DNA of 64,000 bases from Boletus sp. NGJ. Lineage: Eukaryota > Basidiomycota > Agaricomycetes > Boletales > Boletaceae. Numbering within the stretch: the first letter of the stretch is position 1; each line of letters starts with the position of its first letter. A program made the translations under genes and the position numbers. Under the pieces are notes generated by a model, which saw only the letters and a list, made by a program, of their open reading frames with translations, ran no database searches and had not been told where the DNA came from. The stretch lies in NCBI GenBank assembly GCA_019096195.1, contig JAGTXK010000229.1, forward strand, positions 186,001 through 250,000, read 5' to 3'. Below, piece after piece: positions 37,176 through 50,417 of this stretch.

Positions 37176-40100
37176 ATGAAGGCCGTGAAGAAACAAATCG
37201 GACGCCTCCGATCCCATATCGCCAGTGGAGATTCGTCTCAAGCACGTTCCGACATACCCAACATGCAGCCAAGCGCAATCCCCAGCGACTTTAACATTTT
37301 CCAGACTCAGTCCAAAGACACTGGTGCTCTCGCTCTCGAGACACAGCATATAGATTCATATACGCACGAAGAACTGGTCTCATCCCCTGTCTCTCAGGCT
37401 CTCGAGCCACGCTCTGGCGACTCGAGCATTCCCAACGTGCAGACGAAAACCTCTGATATCACCGACGTCATGCAGCATGTTGACCCGGACCTCATGAAGA
37501 AATTTGGACGATTTAGGATTCTCATCGTCGGTAGGGCGAATGCTGGCAAGACGACCGTCCTTCAGCGAATCTGCAACTCGACGGAAGATCCGGAAATCTA
37601 CGATGATCAAGGAGGAAAGGTATGGTTTACCAATGCAGGGACATTCTAGCTACTAATATCATCAACATGCGATCAGGATGATTTTGTGATCAGGGGGTCC
37701 ACGGAGGTGAGTGTCACGGTGGCATGAATGTCGTTGTAGCCATTGCAACCCATCTCACTCTCCACAGCGTGGACTCCATGATATCAATCATGAAATGGTT
37801 TTCAAAAGCAACCAGAAATTCGTCTTTCATGACTCTGCTGGTTTCGAGGCTGGCCGTGAGGATGAGTTCGAGAAGATGAAGAACTTCATCACAGAGCGGG
37901 CCAATACAACATTGCTCAAGAGGCGGATTCATGCCATATGGTGAGTGGACATATACTGTGCAATGTTCTGACATCTTTAATACAAGCAGGTACTGTATTC
38001 CAATGGATCAACTTCATCGTGCTGTCACTTTTGCAGAGGAAAAGTTTTTTGGTGAATGTGACACAAGAAAAGGTGATGAATTCTTGATGATGATGTTTTC
38101 CGAGCTCATTGGTTTGGGTGCTAGTCCCAGTTGTGGTGCTATTCACTAAATGGGATGCACTGGTAATCCAGGCATTCCAGCCTGAAGACTTACTACTGCC
38201 TCTTGAAGATCAGCTTTTGAGGCAGAGGAAGTGTGCTGAAGAGGCATTTACCAAGAGAGATGTATGGGCAGATCTGTGCAAGATGGAATTTCCTCCACAG
38301 GCATTTGTACAACTGGAAAGTTTGTATACATATACTCTCATCTCCATTCTATTCTATTAATGATTTTACCAGACATGGATACATCTGACACTGGATGTAA
38401 CATATTGCTGGAACAGACTGCAGCTGCATTGGATGATAAATCATTGCAGATGTTGTTGATTACAGCACAGGAAAAGAATATCCAACTATGCATTCAGTAT
38501 GCAGTCAGATAGTGAGTGAAACAGTTTTTGTATTAATATATATATGTACTAATGCCATCAAGTGCCTTGGTACCTTATGTTGAATTGAGGACCACCTCAA
38601 AGAAAGTCCTTGATCTGGCTAAGGCATTGGCAAGTTGGTTTCCACACACAGAGGTGAGATTCTACACAGCAATAATATTAAAACCCAAAATATTTGAATA
38701 TTGATGTCTTGTTGGTCAGGTAATTATCATGAACATTAAATTGAAAAAGGTTTACTGATTTATTTATTTATTCTGTCCATGAAGACAGTATGTGACATAT
38801 TATGCATTGGAATGATGATAAACTGACATATTCATATTTTATCAAATCAACAGTATGTAAGTAGTTCATCAAAGCAAATATATATATTTGTCTTGACATT
38901 GTCTACTACTCTTCCATTAATAGCAAGTAAGTAATCAGATGGATATTTGATTGAGAGTGTTACTGATGAATTCTTGTTTATTCTTGTTTGAATTCAAAGG
39001 GAGTGAGTTGTATATGAATATTTCAAGATCAGCATGGTAGTAATGAATCTGTTTCATGCCTTACTGCTATTCTTTTATTCTTAGGCAGTAAGTGATCTGA
39101 AATGTAGTCAAAGGCATAGGCTAATGGATTGATATTGATAGGGGGTAAGTAGTCTAACTATATCTAAAAGACACAAACTGGAGAGTTTCATATATATTTC
39201 TGCAACAATATTGGACATGCAGCAAGTAAGTGCATCATTGACAAATACTTGTTCATCTCTCCAACTGCTATTCCAATAATAGTTTGTAGGTGACCATCCA
39301 TATGAAGAGGAAATGTATTGATCATGGAATTGTGTTCTGTGTTTTCCATTGATAGCTTGTAAGTGTTCCAATGGGGATATGACAACAAAACACTACTAAT
39401 GAATGTATTTTGCTGCTCTTCCATTAACAGTTTGTAAGTAGTATGTGTGGATTTGAAATGAAAATCCTACTGATGAGGATATATCCTACTGTTCTTCCAT
39501 TCATAGGGAGTAAGTGATCTGATATAGATTGAATTGAAATATTGCTGATGAGCATGCATCCTGGTGCTCTCCTATTGATAGGCTGTGAGTGATTTGATGT
39601 GGATTTGGAATAAGATTCCTCTTAATGAGCATGCATCCTCTGCTCTTCCATTAATAGCGAGTAAGTGGTCTGAGGTGCTTTCAAAATAAAAATCCTGCTA
39701 ATAAGCATGCATTTTATGCTCTTCCATCAATAGTTTGTAAGTGATCTGATGTGGATTTCAAATGAGAATTCTGCTAATGAACATCCATTCTGCTGCTCTC
39801 CCACTAATAGGGAGTAAGTGGCCTGATATGGATTTGAATAAAAATCCTGCTAATAAACATCCATTCTGCCACTCTTCCATTGATAGCGAGTAAGTGATCT
39901 AATATGGATTCAAAATGAGAATCCTGCTAACATGCATATATTCTATTGCTCTTCCATTGATAGTTTGTAAGTGATTGATGTGGATTTCAAATCAGAATTC
40001 TGCTCATGGACATGCATTCTGCTGTTCTTCCATTGATAGGGAGTGAGTGGTCTAATGTGGATTTGAATAAGGATCCTGCTAATGGGCATACATTCTGCTA

Positions 40101-42112
40101 CTCTCATTGATAGGAAGTAAGTGAGCTGATGGGTATTTGGAATGAGAATCCTGCTGATGTATATACACCCTACTATTCTCCCATTTATAGGATGTAAGTG
40201 GTCTGATGCGGATTTCAAATAAGAACTCCACTGACAATTTGCTGCTCTCTCATTGATAGGTTGTAAGTAATCTAATGTGGATTTCAAATGAGAATCCCTG
40301 CTGATGAACATGTACCCTGCTCTTCCATTGATAGGGAGTAAGTGGTCTAATGTGGATTTGAAATATATACTGATGAGTATGCATCCTGCTGTTCTCTTAT
40401 AATAGTTTGTAAGTGGTCTGATGGGTTTTGAAATGAAAATCCTGCTAATAAGAATGCATCCCACTTTCCCCAATTGATAGGGTGTGAGTGGTTTGATGTA
40501 GATTTGAAATAAAAATCCTGCTGATGAGCATACATCCTACTGCTCTTTCCATTGATAGGAAGTAAGTGGTTTGAAGCAGCTTTGAAATAAGAATCCTGCT
40601 AATGAAGCATGCATCTTGCTGCTTTCTCTTTAATAGCTTGTAAGAAGTTTAATGTAGATTTGACATGAAAATCCTGCTGATTATGCATTCTGCTGTTCTG
40701 CAATTGATAGGAAGTAAGTGGTCTGCCATGGATTTGAATTGTACACCTTGTTAATGAGCATGCATCCTGCTACTCTTGGATAGGCTGTGAGTGATCTGAT
40801 GTAGATTTGGAACTAAAGTCCTGCTAATGAGCATACATCCTGTTTTTCTCTCATCAATAGCTTGTAAGAGGTTTGATATGGATTTGAAATGAAAATCCTA
40901 CTGATGGACTTGCATCCTACTGCTCTCTCTTTGATAGTTTGTAAGCAATTTAATATGGAGTTGAAATGAGAATTCTGCTGACAAGCATGCATCCTGCTGT
41001 CCTTGTATTAATAGGCTGTAAGTGATCTAATGTAGACTTGAAAAAACAATACTACTGACAATACCTTTCTATTCTTTCTATTGCCATCACTATTCCACTG
41101 ATAGTTTGTAAGTGCTGTTGTAACTATGAGACAATGCTGATTGCTGATCATTTTATGTTCATGTTTTTCTATCACTATCCTCTTGATAGGAAGTAAGTAG
41201 TGTACTTTGAAATTACAGCAAGAATGTGACTTATCAATCAACATTTACTTGTATTTTTACAGAAGGTGAGCAATATATGTGAATTGACAATATGAACTAC
41301 TAATATACACACACATTGTACCTGCCTCAAATATTGTCTTCAAAAATAGAATGTAAGTGATCTAATATAGTGCAAATTTGAATTCTATTCATTGACTTTT
41401 CATTTTTCTTGTCAAATTCTATTATTGAAACTCCTGTATCCTTAGCTGGTAAGTGTTATTTTGCTCCTGTATAAATTGCACAATTATACATTGATATTGC
41501 TATAGGATGTAAGTTTAGTTTGCCATGCAACATTTCTATGTTGTTTACATCTATGTTTTGTTGACATTCAGCAGGTAAGATATTATATTTGTGTGATAAT
41601 TTTAATATTCTTATTTATGATTTGAATAGACAGTTAGTTTTTACCTTCAAGGTCAATATATTACAACTCATGTTTTCCAGATTGTCATGAAGCCTCAGTC
41701 CCACCCTGTTTCTCTTCCAACAACCAAGGCAATATCTTTGGTATGTATATTCATTGTGGGAATATTCATATTCATATTTTATGTATTTTAGACTGAGAAA
41801 ACAGCTGATGCATGGAAAGGGGTCCTTCAAAGTGGCATTGGCAAGCCAATTAAGTTAAAGTTTTGATGACTCTCATCTTTCTTAATAGATCTGATATTTC
41901 TTCTTCAATGTTCCTTCACTCTTGCCATCCAAAACAAGTCTAAGGACCCCTTTTCTCTGGCAGTACAAAAATACAAAGCATCTGGGATATCTGCTCAGAT
42001 ATCCAAGCAGCAGGATGAGCTCTTTGCCAAATATTCTACTGCCAATAATAGGGAGGAAAAAGTGAAAGTTGTCATGGATGTGATCTTGCATCATTCTTTG
42101 TGTAAGTTGTGA
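37176..42112 (+). CDS. P-loop GTPase with a 39-microexon array (unit 1)
   Basis: A GTP-binding protein of a family expanded in Agaricomycetes, about 530 residues if every microexon is used. Exon 1 (37176-37619) has a Ser/Thr-rich lead and the P-loop GRANAGKT (residues 119-126). Later exons carry the G3 motif HDSAG (DSAG about 180-183) and G4 TKWD (about 251-254). LAKALASWFPHTE ends at 38653. From there to 41680 the gene is only introns and 3-nt exons in phase 0. Then follow MKPQSHPVSLPTTKAISL, TEKTADAWKGVLQSG and the C-terminal block FLLQCSFTLAIQNKSKDPFS to stop TGA 42110-42112. The last intron has a GC donor (41841). The partner of the GTPase is unknown. The frame is open from end to end on this model. 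Confidence 0.8.
38654..41680 (+). repeat. Array of 40 introns separated by 39 single-codon exons
   Basis: The whole stretch parses as intron, 3 nt, intron, 3 nt and so on. Each intron starts GTAAGT or a close variant and ends TAG or CAG, and most have CTGAT or CTAAT about 30 nt before the acceptor. The distance from acceptor to next donor is exactly 3 nt in all 39 cases, while intron length varies from about 50 to 130 bp (mean 73). The codons include TTT seven times, GGA five and GAA four; none is a stop. The first is ACA (38785-38787) and the last is ACA (41630-41632). Central introns are clear copies of one another; flanking ones are diverged. See the findings. Confidence 0.85.
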
Positions 42113-46449: not shown

Positions 46450-49400
46450 ATGAAGGTCGTGAAGAAACAAATCAGACGCCTCCGATCCCACTGGCACGTC
46501 GCCAGTGGCGACTCGTCTCCGAGTCGGGTACGTCCCGGAAATACATGCAACCAAGCGCAATCAGCGACTCTAACACTCCAGACTCAGTCCAAAGACACTG
46601 GTGCTCTCGCTCTCGAGACACAGCATATAGATTCAGATACGCACGAAGAATTGGTCTCAGACCTCGTCTCTCAGGCTCTCGAGCCACGCTCTGACGACTC
46701 GAGCATTCCCAACGTGCAGACGAAAACCTCTGATATCACCGACGTCATGCAGCATGTTGACCCGGACCTCATGAAGAAATTTGGACGATTTAGGATTCTC
46801 ATCGTCGGTAGGGCGAATGCTGGCAAGACGACCGTCCTTCAGCGAATCTGCAACTCGACGGAAGATCCGGAAATCTACAATGATCGAGGGGGAAAGGTAT
46901 GGTTTATCAACGCTGGCATACCTCCTAGGTACTAATGCCGTCAACGTGCGATCAGGTTGATTTTGTGATCGAGGGGTCCACGGGGGTGAGTGTCGTTGTA
47001 GCCATTGCAACCCATCTCACTCTCCACAGCGTGGACTCCATGATATCAATCATGAAATGGTTTTCAAAAGCAACCAGAAATTCGTCTTTCATGACTCTGC
47101 TGGTTTCGAGGCTGGCCGTGAGGATGAGTTCGAGAAGATGAAGAACTTCATCACAGAGCGGGCCAATACAACATTGCTCAAGAGGCGGATCCATGCCATA
47201 TGGTGAGTGGACATATACTGTGCAATGTCCTGACATCTTTGAATACAAGCAGGTACTGTATTCCAATGGATCAATATCATCGTGCTGTCCTTACTGCGGA
47301 GGAAAAGTTTTTTTGTGAATGTGACACGAGGAAAGGTGATTAACCTTCATTATGATGCTTTCTGAGCTCATTGGTTTGGGTGCTAGTCCCAGTTATGGTG
47401 TTATTCACTAAATGGGATGCACTTGTAATCCAGGCATTCCAGCCTGAATATCTACTAGTGTCTCAAGAGGACCAACTTGTGAGACAGAGGAAGCATGCTG
47501 AAGAGGTTTTTGCCAAGAGAAATATATGGGGGGATCTGTGCAAAATGGAATTTCCTCCACAGGCATTTGTAAAATTGGAAAGTGTGTATACATATGTTCT
47601 CATCTCCATTCTATTCTATTAATGATTTTACCAGACATGGATACATCTGACACTGGATGTAACATATTGCTGGAACAGACTGCAGCTGCATTGGATGATA
47701 AATCATTGCAGATGTTGTTGATTACAGCACAGGAAAAGAATATCCAGCTATGCATTAGGTGTGCAGTCAAATTGTGGGTGAAACAGTTTTTGTATTAATA
47801 TATATATGTACTAATGCCATCAAGTGCCTTGGTACCTTATGTTGAATTGAGGGCCACCTCAAAGACAGTCCTTGATCTGGCTAAGGCACTGGCAAGTTGG
47901 TTTCCACACACATGGGTGAGATTTTGTACAATAACATTAAAATCTAAAATGATTGAGTGATTGAATGATATTGATGTCTTGTTGGTTAGGTAATTATGAT
48001 GACATTTGAGTTGAAAGAGCTTGCTGATTTATTTATTTATTCTGACCATGAAGCTAGTAAGTGATATATTATGCATTGGAATAATGATAAACTGACATAT
48101 TTTATCATATCAATAGCATGTAAGTGGTTTATTAAATAAAAAGATTTGTTTTGACATTATCTACTACTCTTCCATTAATAGCAAGTGAGTAGTCAGACAG
48201 ATACTTGATTGGGAATGTTACTGATGAATTCAAAGAGAGTAAGTTGTATGTGAATATTTGCAGATCTGCATGGTAGTGATGAATTTGTTTCATGCCTGCT
48301 GCTCTCTTTTTATTCTTAGGCAGTAAGTGATCTGAAATGTAGTTAAAGGGAGTCAGGCTAATAGTTTGATATTGATAGGGGGTAAGTAGTTTCATTATAT
48401 CTGAATGACACAAACTAGAGAGTTCATATATATTCCTGCAACAATATTGGACATGTAGCACGTAAGTGTAATATGGATGAAAAATATAATTTCATTGACA
48501 AGTGTGTTTTCATCTCTACAACTGCTATTCCATTAATAGTTGGTAAGTGACCCTCCATATGATGAGGAAATGCATTGATCATGGAACTGTGTTCTATGCT
48601 TTCCATTGATAGCTTGTAAGTGTTCTAATGGGAACATGAAATCAAGACACTGTTAATGAACTGATTGCCTGCTGCTCTCCCATTAACAGTTTGTAAGTGA
48701 TCTGATGTGGAATTGAAATGAAAATAATATTGATGAGCATGCATCCTACTACTCTCCCATTGATAGGGAGTAAGTGGTCTAATGTGGATTTCAAATAAGA
48801 ATCCTGCTGATGAGCATGCTACTCCCTCATCAATAGAAAGTAAGTGGTCTGATTTGCATTGAAATTCTTGCTAATGAGCTTGCAATTTGCCACTTTTATA
48901 TTATTAGGGTGTAAGTGGTCTGATGTAGATTTGAATTAAAATCTTGCTGATGAGCATGCTTCTCCCTCATCAATAGGATGTAAGTGGTCTGATTTGCATT
49001 GAAATTCTTTCTAATGTGCTTGCAACTTGCTACTCTTATATTATTAGTGGGTGAGTGGTCTAATGCAGATTTGAATTGAAATCTTGCTGATGAGCATGCA
49101 ACTTGCTACTCTTATATTATTAGGGTGTAAGTGGTCTGATGTAGATTTGAATTGAAATCTTGCTGATGAGCATGCATTCTACTGCACTTCCACTAATAGA
49201 GAGTAAGTGGTCTGATGTAGATTTGAATTAAAATCTTGCTGATAAGCATGCATTCTACTTACCCTCCCATTGATAGGCTGTAAGTAATCTAATGTAGGCT
49301 TAAAATGAAAGTACTGCTAATAATACCTTTTATTCTTTTGCTATCATCATCATGTCACTAATAGTGGGCAAGTGCTGTTGTAATTTCCATGCTGATTCTC

Positions 49401-50417
49401 ATCATTTCATGTTAATTTTTTTTATTGTTTCCTCTTATAGAATGTAAGTAATGTACTTTGAAATTACAGCAAGAATGTGATTTATTAATCATCATTCACT
49501 TGCATTTTTATAGAAGGTGAACAATATATGTGTATTAATCCTATGGACTACTAATATACACATGCCTGTCCCTAATCTAATGCTTTCTCAAAAATAGGAT
49601 GTAAGTGATCTAATATATAGCACAAGTTTGAATTCTGCTCATTAAAGTTTTTTATCTTCTTGTCAAATCTTGACTATTATTTAAACTCTTGTATGCTTAG
49701 CTGGTAAGTATTATCTTGCTGCTGTATAAATTGTGCAATTATGTATTGATATTGCTGTAGGATGTAAGTTTAGTTTGCTATTTTCCTATGTTATTGATAT
49801 CTATACTTTGTTGACATTAAGGAGGTATGATATTTGTATGATAATTTTAGTATTTTTATTTATGATTTGAATAGACAGTCAGTTTTTACCTTCAAGATCT
49901 GTATAACAACTAATGTTTTTTTAGATTTTCATGGAGTCTCAGTCATATCCAGTAAATTTATAATCTAATTATACTGTTTATTTGCTAAATATTGATTTCT
50001 TTTCTTTTAGGATTCTTTTCCAACAACTGAGGCAATATCTATGGTATACATGTCCATCATGGAAATATTATCCATTCTTTATGTATTTTAGACTGCAAAA
50101 ACAGCCAATACATGGCAAGAGGTTCTTCAAAGTGGCATTGGTAAGTCAATCAATTTAAAGTTTTAACAACTCTCATCTTTCTCTACTTAGACCTGATATT
50201 GCTTCTTCAATATTCCTTCACTCTTGTCCAAAACAAGTCTGAGGACCCCTTTTCCTTGGCAGTACAACACTATAAGGCATCTGGGATATCTTCTCAGATA
50301 TCTGAACAACAGGATGAGCTCTTTGTCAAATATTCTACTGCCAGTAATAGGGAGAAAAAAGTAAAAGTTGTTATAGACATAATCTTGCATTTTTCTCAGG
50401 CTTTGTGTAGGTTGTGA
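46450..50417 (+). CDS. P-loop GTPase with a 26-microexon array (unit 2)
   Basis: Paralogue of 37176-42112. The start is ATG 46450 and the P-loop GRANAGKT is identical. G3 (HDSAG) and G4 (TKWD) are kept, and the frame is open on the same exon model. SWFPHTW ends at 47915; the array of single-codon exons runs to 49924; then FMESQSYP, an extra 59 bp intron (49952-50010) that the unit 1 copy lacks, DSFPTTEAISM, TAKTANTWQEVLQSG and the C-terminal block to TGA 50415-50417. The N-terminal lead has diverged most, with in-frame indels. Preservation of the frame through so many exons suggests it has been under selection since the duplication, unlike its neighbour SLC35F. Confidence 0.8.
47916..49924 (+). 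repeat. Array of 27 introns separated by 26 single-codon exons
   Basis: Same structure as in unit 1. All 26 spacings between acceptor and next donor are exactly 3 nt, from CTA (48054-48056) to ACA (49875-49877), with no stop codon. The mean intron length is about 72 bp. One intron has a GC donor (49368). The first eleven and last nine units align one to one with unit 1; the interior has 6 codon units against 19, so the interior copy number has changed. Confidence 0.85.

Follow-up and report, generated by a model that had tools for sequence, protein, structure and literature searches.

Published accounts of very small exons, as far as the parts available go, describe several systems close to the one reported here. 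The micro-exon genes (MEGs) of Schistosoma have 10–20 exons, mostly of 15 bp (range 6–81 bp in the text and 3–81 bp in the abstract), separated by introns of 0.1–5 kb, and encode secreted proteins (PMC4350168, PMC10526429). Very many microexons are found in the aphid bicycle/megacycle genes, with more than 100 in megacycle (PMC9168663). Single-nucleotide exons are spliced in Arabidopsis APC11 and Fusarium CYP621A (PMC4674806, PMC12940212), intron definition plus a recursive order having been proposed for the 1-nt exon (PMC4674806), and a 3-bp exon of Drosophila homothorax is spliced as well (PMC7392893). Introns can be gained via tandem genomic duplication (PMC4974935), and the ratchet points of recursive splicing are juxtaposed acceptors and donors, that is, exons of zero length (PMC8605326). 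Here we analyzed a 64,000-nucleotide (nt) stretch of DNA from the basidiomycete Boletus sp. NGJ (contig JAGTXK010000229.1, positions 186,001–250,000 of the forward strand; hereafter the window, numbered from its first letter), in which a GTPase gene, gene A, carries an array of 39 consecutive one-codon exons (array A).

Array A lies between an ordinary exon ending in WFPHTE (38653) and another starting with IVMK (41681), with a first donor GTGAGA at 38654 and a last acceptor TTCCAG ending at 41680. The original prediction divided this region into 40 introns of about 73 bp and 39 exons of 3 nt, in phase 0 and without a stop among the codons, and our parse confirmed the coordinates and counts as well as the phase and the absence of stops. 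Intron lengths range from 48 to 131 nt (median 73, n = 40). Only 2 of the 40 acceptors are not YAG, the last donor (GTTAGT) is the single one to depart from GTRNG, and a CTRAY branch-site motif occurs in 26 of the 40 introns versus 8.1 in shuffles, leaving 14 without it. Judging from sequence throughout, we consider it highly probable that the region is a true exon–intron array of a protein-coding GTPase gene, in which ordinary splicing joins a linker codon by codon.

The spacing of the joints was evaluated using a splice-site parser whose score combines donor, acceptor and branch site; exon length is left free between 0 and 60 nt, and the parser is blind to codons. Applied to array A, it returned 39 of 40 exons at 3 nt with a score of 238.6, the remaining one being a zero-length joint in intron 1. 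When the array was shuffled in blocks of two bases (n = 20, of which 17 could be parsed), 3-nt exons made up 8 of 419 and the top score was 82.9. Array A is far beyond chance, and the constant 3-nt spacing of the original prediction held up. Strict joints (YAG-NNN-GTRAG) number 35 in array A, with 30 chained consecutively; among other spacers of 0–12 nt we found one joint each at 0 and 7 nt and none at the remaining lengths. The longest chain of 3-nt joints was 1 in 200 dinucleotide shuffles and likewise 1 in the rest of the window (+ strand). Across the 32.8-Mb genome, a pattern of two joints at 3-nt spacing had 47 matches, compared to none for the reversed control and none with a 4- or 6-nt spacer, and all 47 fell in copies of this gene.

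Alternatively, the whole 3 kb could be spliced out in one piece, as a long intron, or through silent recursive steps, with the joints serving as ratchet points, the codons skipped and the repeat an intronic minisatellite. Both flanks of array A are in phase 0, and the frame would survive such full skipping. However, a pure ratchet requires no 3-nt spacing, while the 35 strict joints all have it, and this, together with evidence given below, makes the explanation improbable. The zero-length joint that the free parse placed in intron 1 is a possible recursive splice site in its own right. The free parse of the array in a second copy, gene B, likewise holds one zero-length joint.

This Boletaceae GTPase gene is present in six copies with one-codon arrays, two in the window (A and B) and four elsewhere in the genome (C, C3a, C3b and C107); they are spread over four contigs and contain two different intron families. 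Gene B, ~9.3 kb downstream of gene A, is a duplicate of it whose array is shorter. Copy C, on the reverse strand of contig C21, has a TGA in its P-loop exon and an element inserted in its array just after the WFPHTQ exon, which by eye appears to be a Ty3/Gypsy-type long terminal repeat (LTR) retrotransposon; counts for this array cover only the portion 3' of the element. The other three loci were found by the joint pattern and also recovered with the G-domain protein, and their unit differs from the A type and is longer (median introns 81–85 nt). The array of C3b and C107 directly follows the same WFPH exon as in A. In C3a (C3:526000-535999), which is probably a pseudogene, this exon is deleted into the array and the P-loop exon is missing; its array contains 18 codons by forced parse, none of them a stop. 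Arrays are located at the same exon junction wherever this could be assessed, C3a being judged from its 3' side only. As a separate observation, the two ordinary exons immediately following the C3b array (6 and ~16 codons, at about 1600–1920 of the locus) seem to be present twice in tandem, along with their introns.

In the free parse, 177 of 192 exons across the six arrays were 3 nt long (A 39/40, B 22/26, C107 26/27, C3b 48/50, C 27/28 and C3a 15/21). A forced parse, in which exons are fixed at 3 nt, was used for codon counts and gave 188 exons in total (A 39, B 26, C 28, C3a 18, C3b 50 and C107 27) with introns of 44–176 nt. Of the 194 introns in the forced parse, 128 contain a branch-site motif, compared to 36.6 in shuffles, 150 start with a GTRAGT donor and 183 end in a YAG acceptor. 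Single 0-nt strict joints also occur in C, C3b and C107, one in each. An assembly artifact or non-functional relic could be suspected from the degraded state of C and C3a, but is contradicted by the occurrence of two unit families at six loci across four contigs, by the open ordinary exons of gene A, by a ratio of nonsynonymous to synonymous rates (dN/dS) of 0.40 for the ordinary 5' exons when A is compared with B (1098 nt, free of stops), and by a separate gene model from Butyriboletus roseoflavus (P0056) that runs past WFPHTE into the translation of the same intron 1 of array A. We regard it as extremely improbable.

Stop codons are absent from all six arrays (0 of 188 codons) compared to a mean of 15.4 expected, and zero was reached in none of 20,000 column shuffles, in which letters were shuffled within the columns of each array and duplicated units were treated as independent. 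With repeats of a codon type within an array reduced to one, 5.6 stops were expected (P = 0.0009). Of the array codons, 101 of 188 lie one change from a stop. Counts for shifted triplets (2–38 of 188) fall in conserved intron motifs, and nothing was drawn from them. The lack of stops argues against removal of the 3 kb as a single intron. The third codon position is almost devoid of C (1 of 188 array codons), possibly owing to constraint from the following donor.

A second line of evidence comes from the 3' end of the arrays, where all five of A, B, C, C107 and C3b share the one-codon exons CTG and GAT, and four of them also share CAG. The introns preceding these three slots were compared between the two families, and in 0 of 18 comparisons did their similarity exceed the 95% point of shuffles, with one equal to it. 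Because these codons were kept while the introns became saturated, CTG-GAT-CAG is probably under selection, as would not be expected if the codons were always skipped within one long intron.

To compare the arrays with proteins from other genomes, we used the C107 model to search 5.8 billion proteins, with 8000 candidates scored, at least 981 matches and the best 120 examined, together with a profile search (E ≤ 1e-60; 1343 matches, best 120 examined). The relatives comprise 163 proteins (P0001–P0163), from named genera that we take to be Boletales; 89 contain the motif WFP[HQYN] (76 named, non-JGI proteins and 13 from JGI) and 74 do not. The majority of named proteins with the motif (68 of 76) end less than 85 residues after it, and 8 continue. 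In 55 of the 76, V and then R, S or K follows the motif with one to three residues in between, as if translation read into a GTRAG donor. The many short proteins suggest that arrays or comparable structures occur widely in Boletales but escape annotation, from which such genes are apparently lost.

Among the 13 JGI proteins with the motif, 8 are short and 5 continue (P0002, P0004, P0033, P0041 and P0065). These five are intronless and located on contigs of 1.2–1.7 kb. Since six introns precede the array in genes A and C107, we infer that these contigs are cDNA. In the five proteins, 44–68 residues separate WFPH from the C-terminal domain, part of which is expected from ordinary exons, and in two of the five the linker ends like our arrays (EFANLDRA/VIP in P0041 beside FEKNLDQT/IVM in A; WWWDLDME/LVDEHH in P0033 beside HLDQE/LLDDRH in C107). 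A protein search restricted to this region matched only P0033. Intronless relatives holding a linker with matching ends would not be expected if the 3 kb were always discarded whole, whereas some Suillus models (P0071 and P0104) link WFPH nearly directly to the C-terminal domain, as that explanation would have it. Two further Suillus models, P0080 and P0119, were dropped as linker evidence: their linkers start with the V-R stretch that ends truncated models and may be partly intron. The original prediction of introns alternating with one-codon exons is thus supported by five further arrays, by the absence of stops, by the retained CTG, GAT and CAG codons, by the linkers of intronless relatives and by a few other relatives that seem to break off in a retained array intron (see below), and the observation of the array itself is confirmed.

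Other relatives appear to have retained an array intron. P0019 (JGI) reads WFPHFW, EYYYLGAG and then VSCALWHMA, and one C107 intron translates as VSCALWHVA. Both P0019 and P0021 (JGI) end in an apparent in-frame translation of an array intron, 8 and 9 residues past the exon end, and the Boletus edulis model P0029 matches an array intron in frame 0 one residue past the exon end. All three scored above all shuffles in both retained-intron tests (100 shuffles, and 60 in the frame-0 test). The same intron family probably forms arrays in these relatives, where 8–9 residues were joined before the retained intron; this would indirectly fit an ordered removal of introns one by one.

A mixed use of the arrays would be compatible with the codon-by-codon linker that we favor: the microexons could be optional, with one gene producing many codon subsets. 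All exons are symmetric, and any subset would stay in frame; linker lengths also differ among the transcript-like relatives (44–68 residues), though these represent different genes or species. The retained introns of P0019 and P0021, which come after joined residues, look like incomplete ordered splicing rather than chosen skipping, and we consider such optional use possible but doubtful.

Several results weigh against the reading of the region as a translated array. Copies C and C3a are damaged, and B (22/26) and C3a (15/21) parse less cleanly than the others. The stop test weakens to 2.0 expected (P = 0.07) if every codon type enters a single time for the six arrays together. At a fourth 3' slot (AAT/GAT/CAT), intron similarity still exceeds that of shuffles in three of six comparisons, and the slot provides no evidence of selection. 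In the retained-intron tests, P0046 (JGI, 24 residues before the putative intron) was above 100 shuffles equally in two frames and failed the frame-0 test, P0052 was marginal in the frame-0 test (46 versus 45), and P0028, P0030 and P0061 were not above 100 shuffles. The origin of the relatives' linkers in 3-nt exons is read from protein-level sequence, and inclusion of the array codons in mRNA of this species from the genome and the relatives. Finally, 20 codons paired between A and B show 12 differences, all nonsynonymous and none synonymous; codons were paired by order (11 from the 5' end and 9 from the 3' end), which may be wrong in places.

Array codons thereby diverge between A and B (12/60) no more slowly than introns do (0.131 per site), which would also fit skipping of the whole array as intron. 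As far as these comparisons indicate, codons away from the 3' end are free of constraint. Signs of diversifying selection are weak, with P = 0.016 for 12 of 47 nonsynonymous sites against 0.131 and P = 0.087 for 12 of 60 sites. A more speculative idea is that the arrays are a device for rewriting a surface loop of the GTPase codon by codon, through unequal exchange over generations and exon skipping among transcripts, making the loop hypervariable as in recognition proteins. The 12 nonsynonymous versus 0 synonymous differences are a first, weak hint of this, and we rate it as unlikely.

The seven 5' exons of gene A contain no stop, encode the GTPase motifs GRANAGKT, HDSAGF and FTKWD, end in ASWFPHTE and are identical to B. 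roseoflavus J3R82DRAFT_6414 (Boletaceae) at 379 of 385 positions. The C-terminal part of the product matches P0002 and P0041, and the coding 3' end is placed provisionally at about 42101. In this model, microexons contribute 117 of 1633 nt. G1, G3 and G4 motifs (GRANAGKT, HDSxGF and TKWD/TKFD) are present, and the C107 model matches Pfam PF01926 (MMR_HSR1) at 22 bits, barely above the cutoff of 21.9; by motifs and profile match, the protein is an MMR_HSR1-like P-loop GTPase. We ran AlphaFold2 on P0004 using an alignment of 32 sequences (mean predicted local distance difference test score (pLDDT) of 74.2). A Foldseek search with this model returned general G-protein folds (template modeling score by query ~0.3), and the model points to a general G-protein fold with the subfamily left unnamed. 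The G domain and a C-terminal helical bundle (helices 367–441) are predicted with confidence. Residues 300–329 and 339–364, most of the stretch equivalent to the array, have pLDDT below 50, which suggests that the array encodes a flexible linker between two domains.

More distant GTPase relatives in the same genome (two places on C22, and C10, C125, C121 and C49) had no neighboring 3-nt joints. The tblastn matches inspected (three of nine queries) cover only about residues 59–179 of the relatives. Two of the loci, C10:19620-19853 and C125:33060-33293, are located on different contigs and have identical match scores, possibly reflecting a recent duplication or an uncollapsed haplotype.

The core of array A is a head-to-tail tandem repeat, or minisatellite. 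Identities between introns reach 0.88, while introns at both ends of the array are at most ~0.67–0.68 identical to any other. No strong higher-order repeat was found in array A, where mean intron identity was 0.73 at lags of 1–5 units and 0.70–0.72 at lags of 6–11. The similarity of introns within one array could also result from introner-like (mobile) elements inserted repeatedly into the gene. However, the exact one-codon spacing and the Tandem Repeats Finder periods point to tandem duplication. Moreover, introners are similar introns dispersed in many genes, whereas DNA searches using a segment from either unit family matched only that family's arrays in this gene family, among the best candidates scored (a lack of matches does not show rarity). 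Repeated insertion is therefore very improbable.

Table 1. Coordinates of the arrays and of genes A and B in the window
Feature	Position	Strand	Remarks
Gene A, 5' exons (37176-37619, 37677-37706, 37768-37940, 37990-38072, 38125-38319, 38373-38511, 38563-38653)	37176..38653	+	Model from DNA
Array A, 40 introns and 39 three-nt exons	38654..41680	+	Free-length parse; peptide TYQGAGQFLFGARFGRFGEDVGFGELEALFAFEKNLDQT
Possible recursive site (zero-length exon), CAG/GTAATT, inside intron 1 (131 nt) of array A	38719..38720	+	Picked by free parse of A
Core of array A, tandem repeat with a period of 76 bp (21.5 copies), also 153 and 229 bp	39411..41033	+	Tandem Repeats Finder
3' one-codon exons CTG (41446), GAT (41506) and CAG (41572)	41446..41574	+	Identical in C107 and C3b
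Gene A, ordinary 3' exons (41681-41740, 41792-41840, 41889-42101)	41681..42101	+	C-terminal helical domain; one GC donor (41841)
Gene B, stretch 5' of its array	47263..47912	+	91% identical to 38000-38653 of gene A
Array B, 27 introns and 26 three-nt exons (forced parse)	47916..49924	+	22/26 are 3 nt in free parse

Under the favored reading of a spliced and translated array, each unit would comprise a short spliceosomal intron (~73 nt) and one codon. Introns would be recognized as units (intron definition) and presumably removed one after another by ordinary splicing, because an exon of 3 nt leaves too little room for the introns on its two sides to be engaged together. The joined codons would form a low-constraint, probably disordered linker leading from the G domain, which ends in WFPH, to the C-terminal helical bundle. 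The array itself may expand, contract and homogenize as a tandem repeat whose unit is an intron and a codon, with turnover probably by unequal exchange. Since a unit adds precisely one codon in phase 0, the frame is preserved however many units are gained, lost or skipped, and growth would be cheap; in this way the copies may have ended with different unit families while retaining their 3' codons. If the codons are joined, a fungal spliceosome removes ~40 consecutive introns with one codon between each pair, a stricter test of minimum exon size and of the order of intron removal than isolated exons of 1–3 nt. A frame-neutral tandem unit would also be a possible route for the multiplication of spliceosomal introns.

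Compared with known systems, the arrays most resemble the schistosome MEGs, which according to the available parts of their descriptions (PMC4350168, PMC10526429) also have runs of tiny symmetric exons, permit in-frame alternative splicing and are hard to annotate. Many consecutive small symmetric exons are present in all six arrays (18–50 three-nt exons by forced parse). Unlike in MEGs, the coding region is not made mostly of 15-bp microexons with long introns; instead, 39 exons of exactly 3 nt alternate with ~73-nt introns that form a tandem repeat within a GTPase gene. The exons of the aphid bicycle/megacycle genes average above one codon (118 exons for 2092 amino acids), internal exons are nearly all in phase 2 and the products are putative effectors (PMC9168663); the available part of that description contains no units of intron plus codon like those found here. 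The tiny exons of APC11, CYP621A and homothorax are isolated, one per gene, whereas here dozens are consecutive. As in recursive splicing, removal would be stepwise with regeneration of a donor, but 3 nt stay behind at each step: 39 of 40 joints in array A carry 3 nt, with a single zero-length candidate in intron 1. Among the titles and abstracts covered, which represent part of the literature, none describes consecutive one-codon exons or these genes. The arrays would share intron gain by tandem duplication with the published case (PMC4974935, in the part available), and differ in that entire intron-plus-codon units are repeated dozens of times in one place. We class the array gene as a microexon gene with an exon size of one codon, dozens of them in series, that probably evolves as a tandem repeat.

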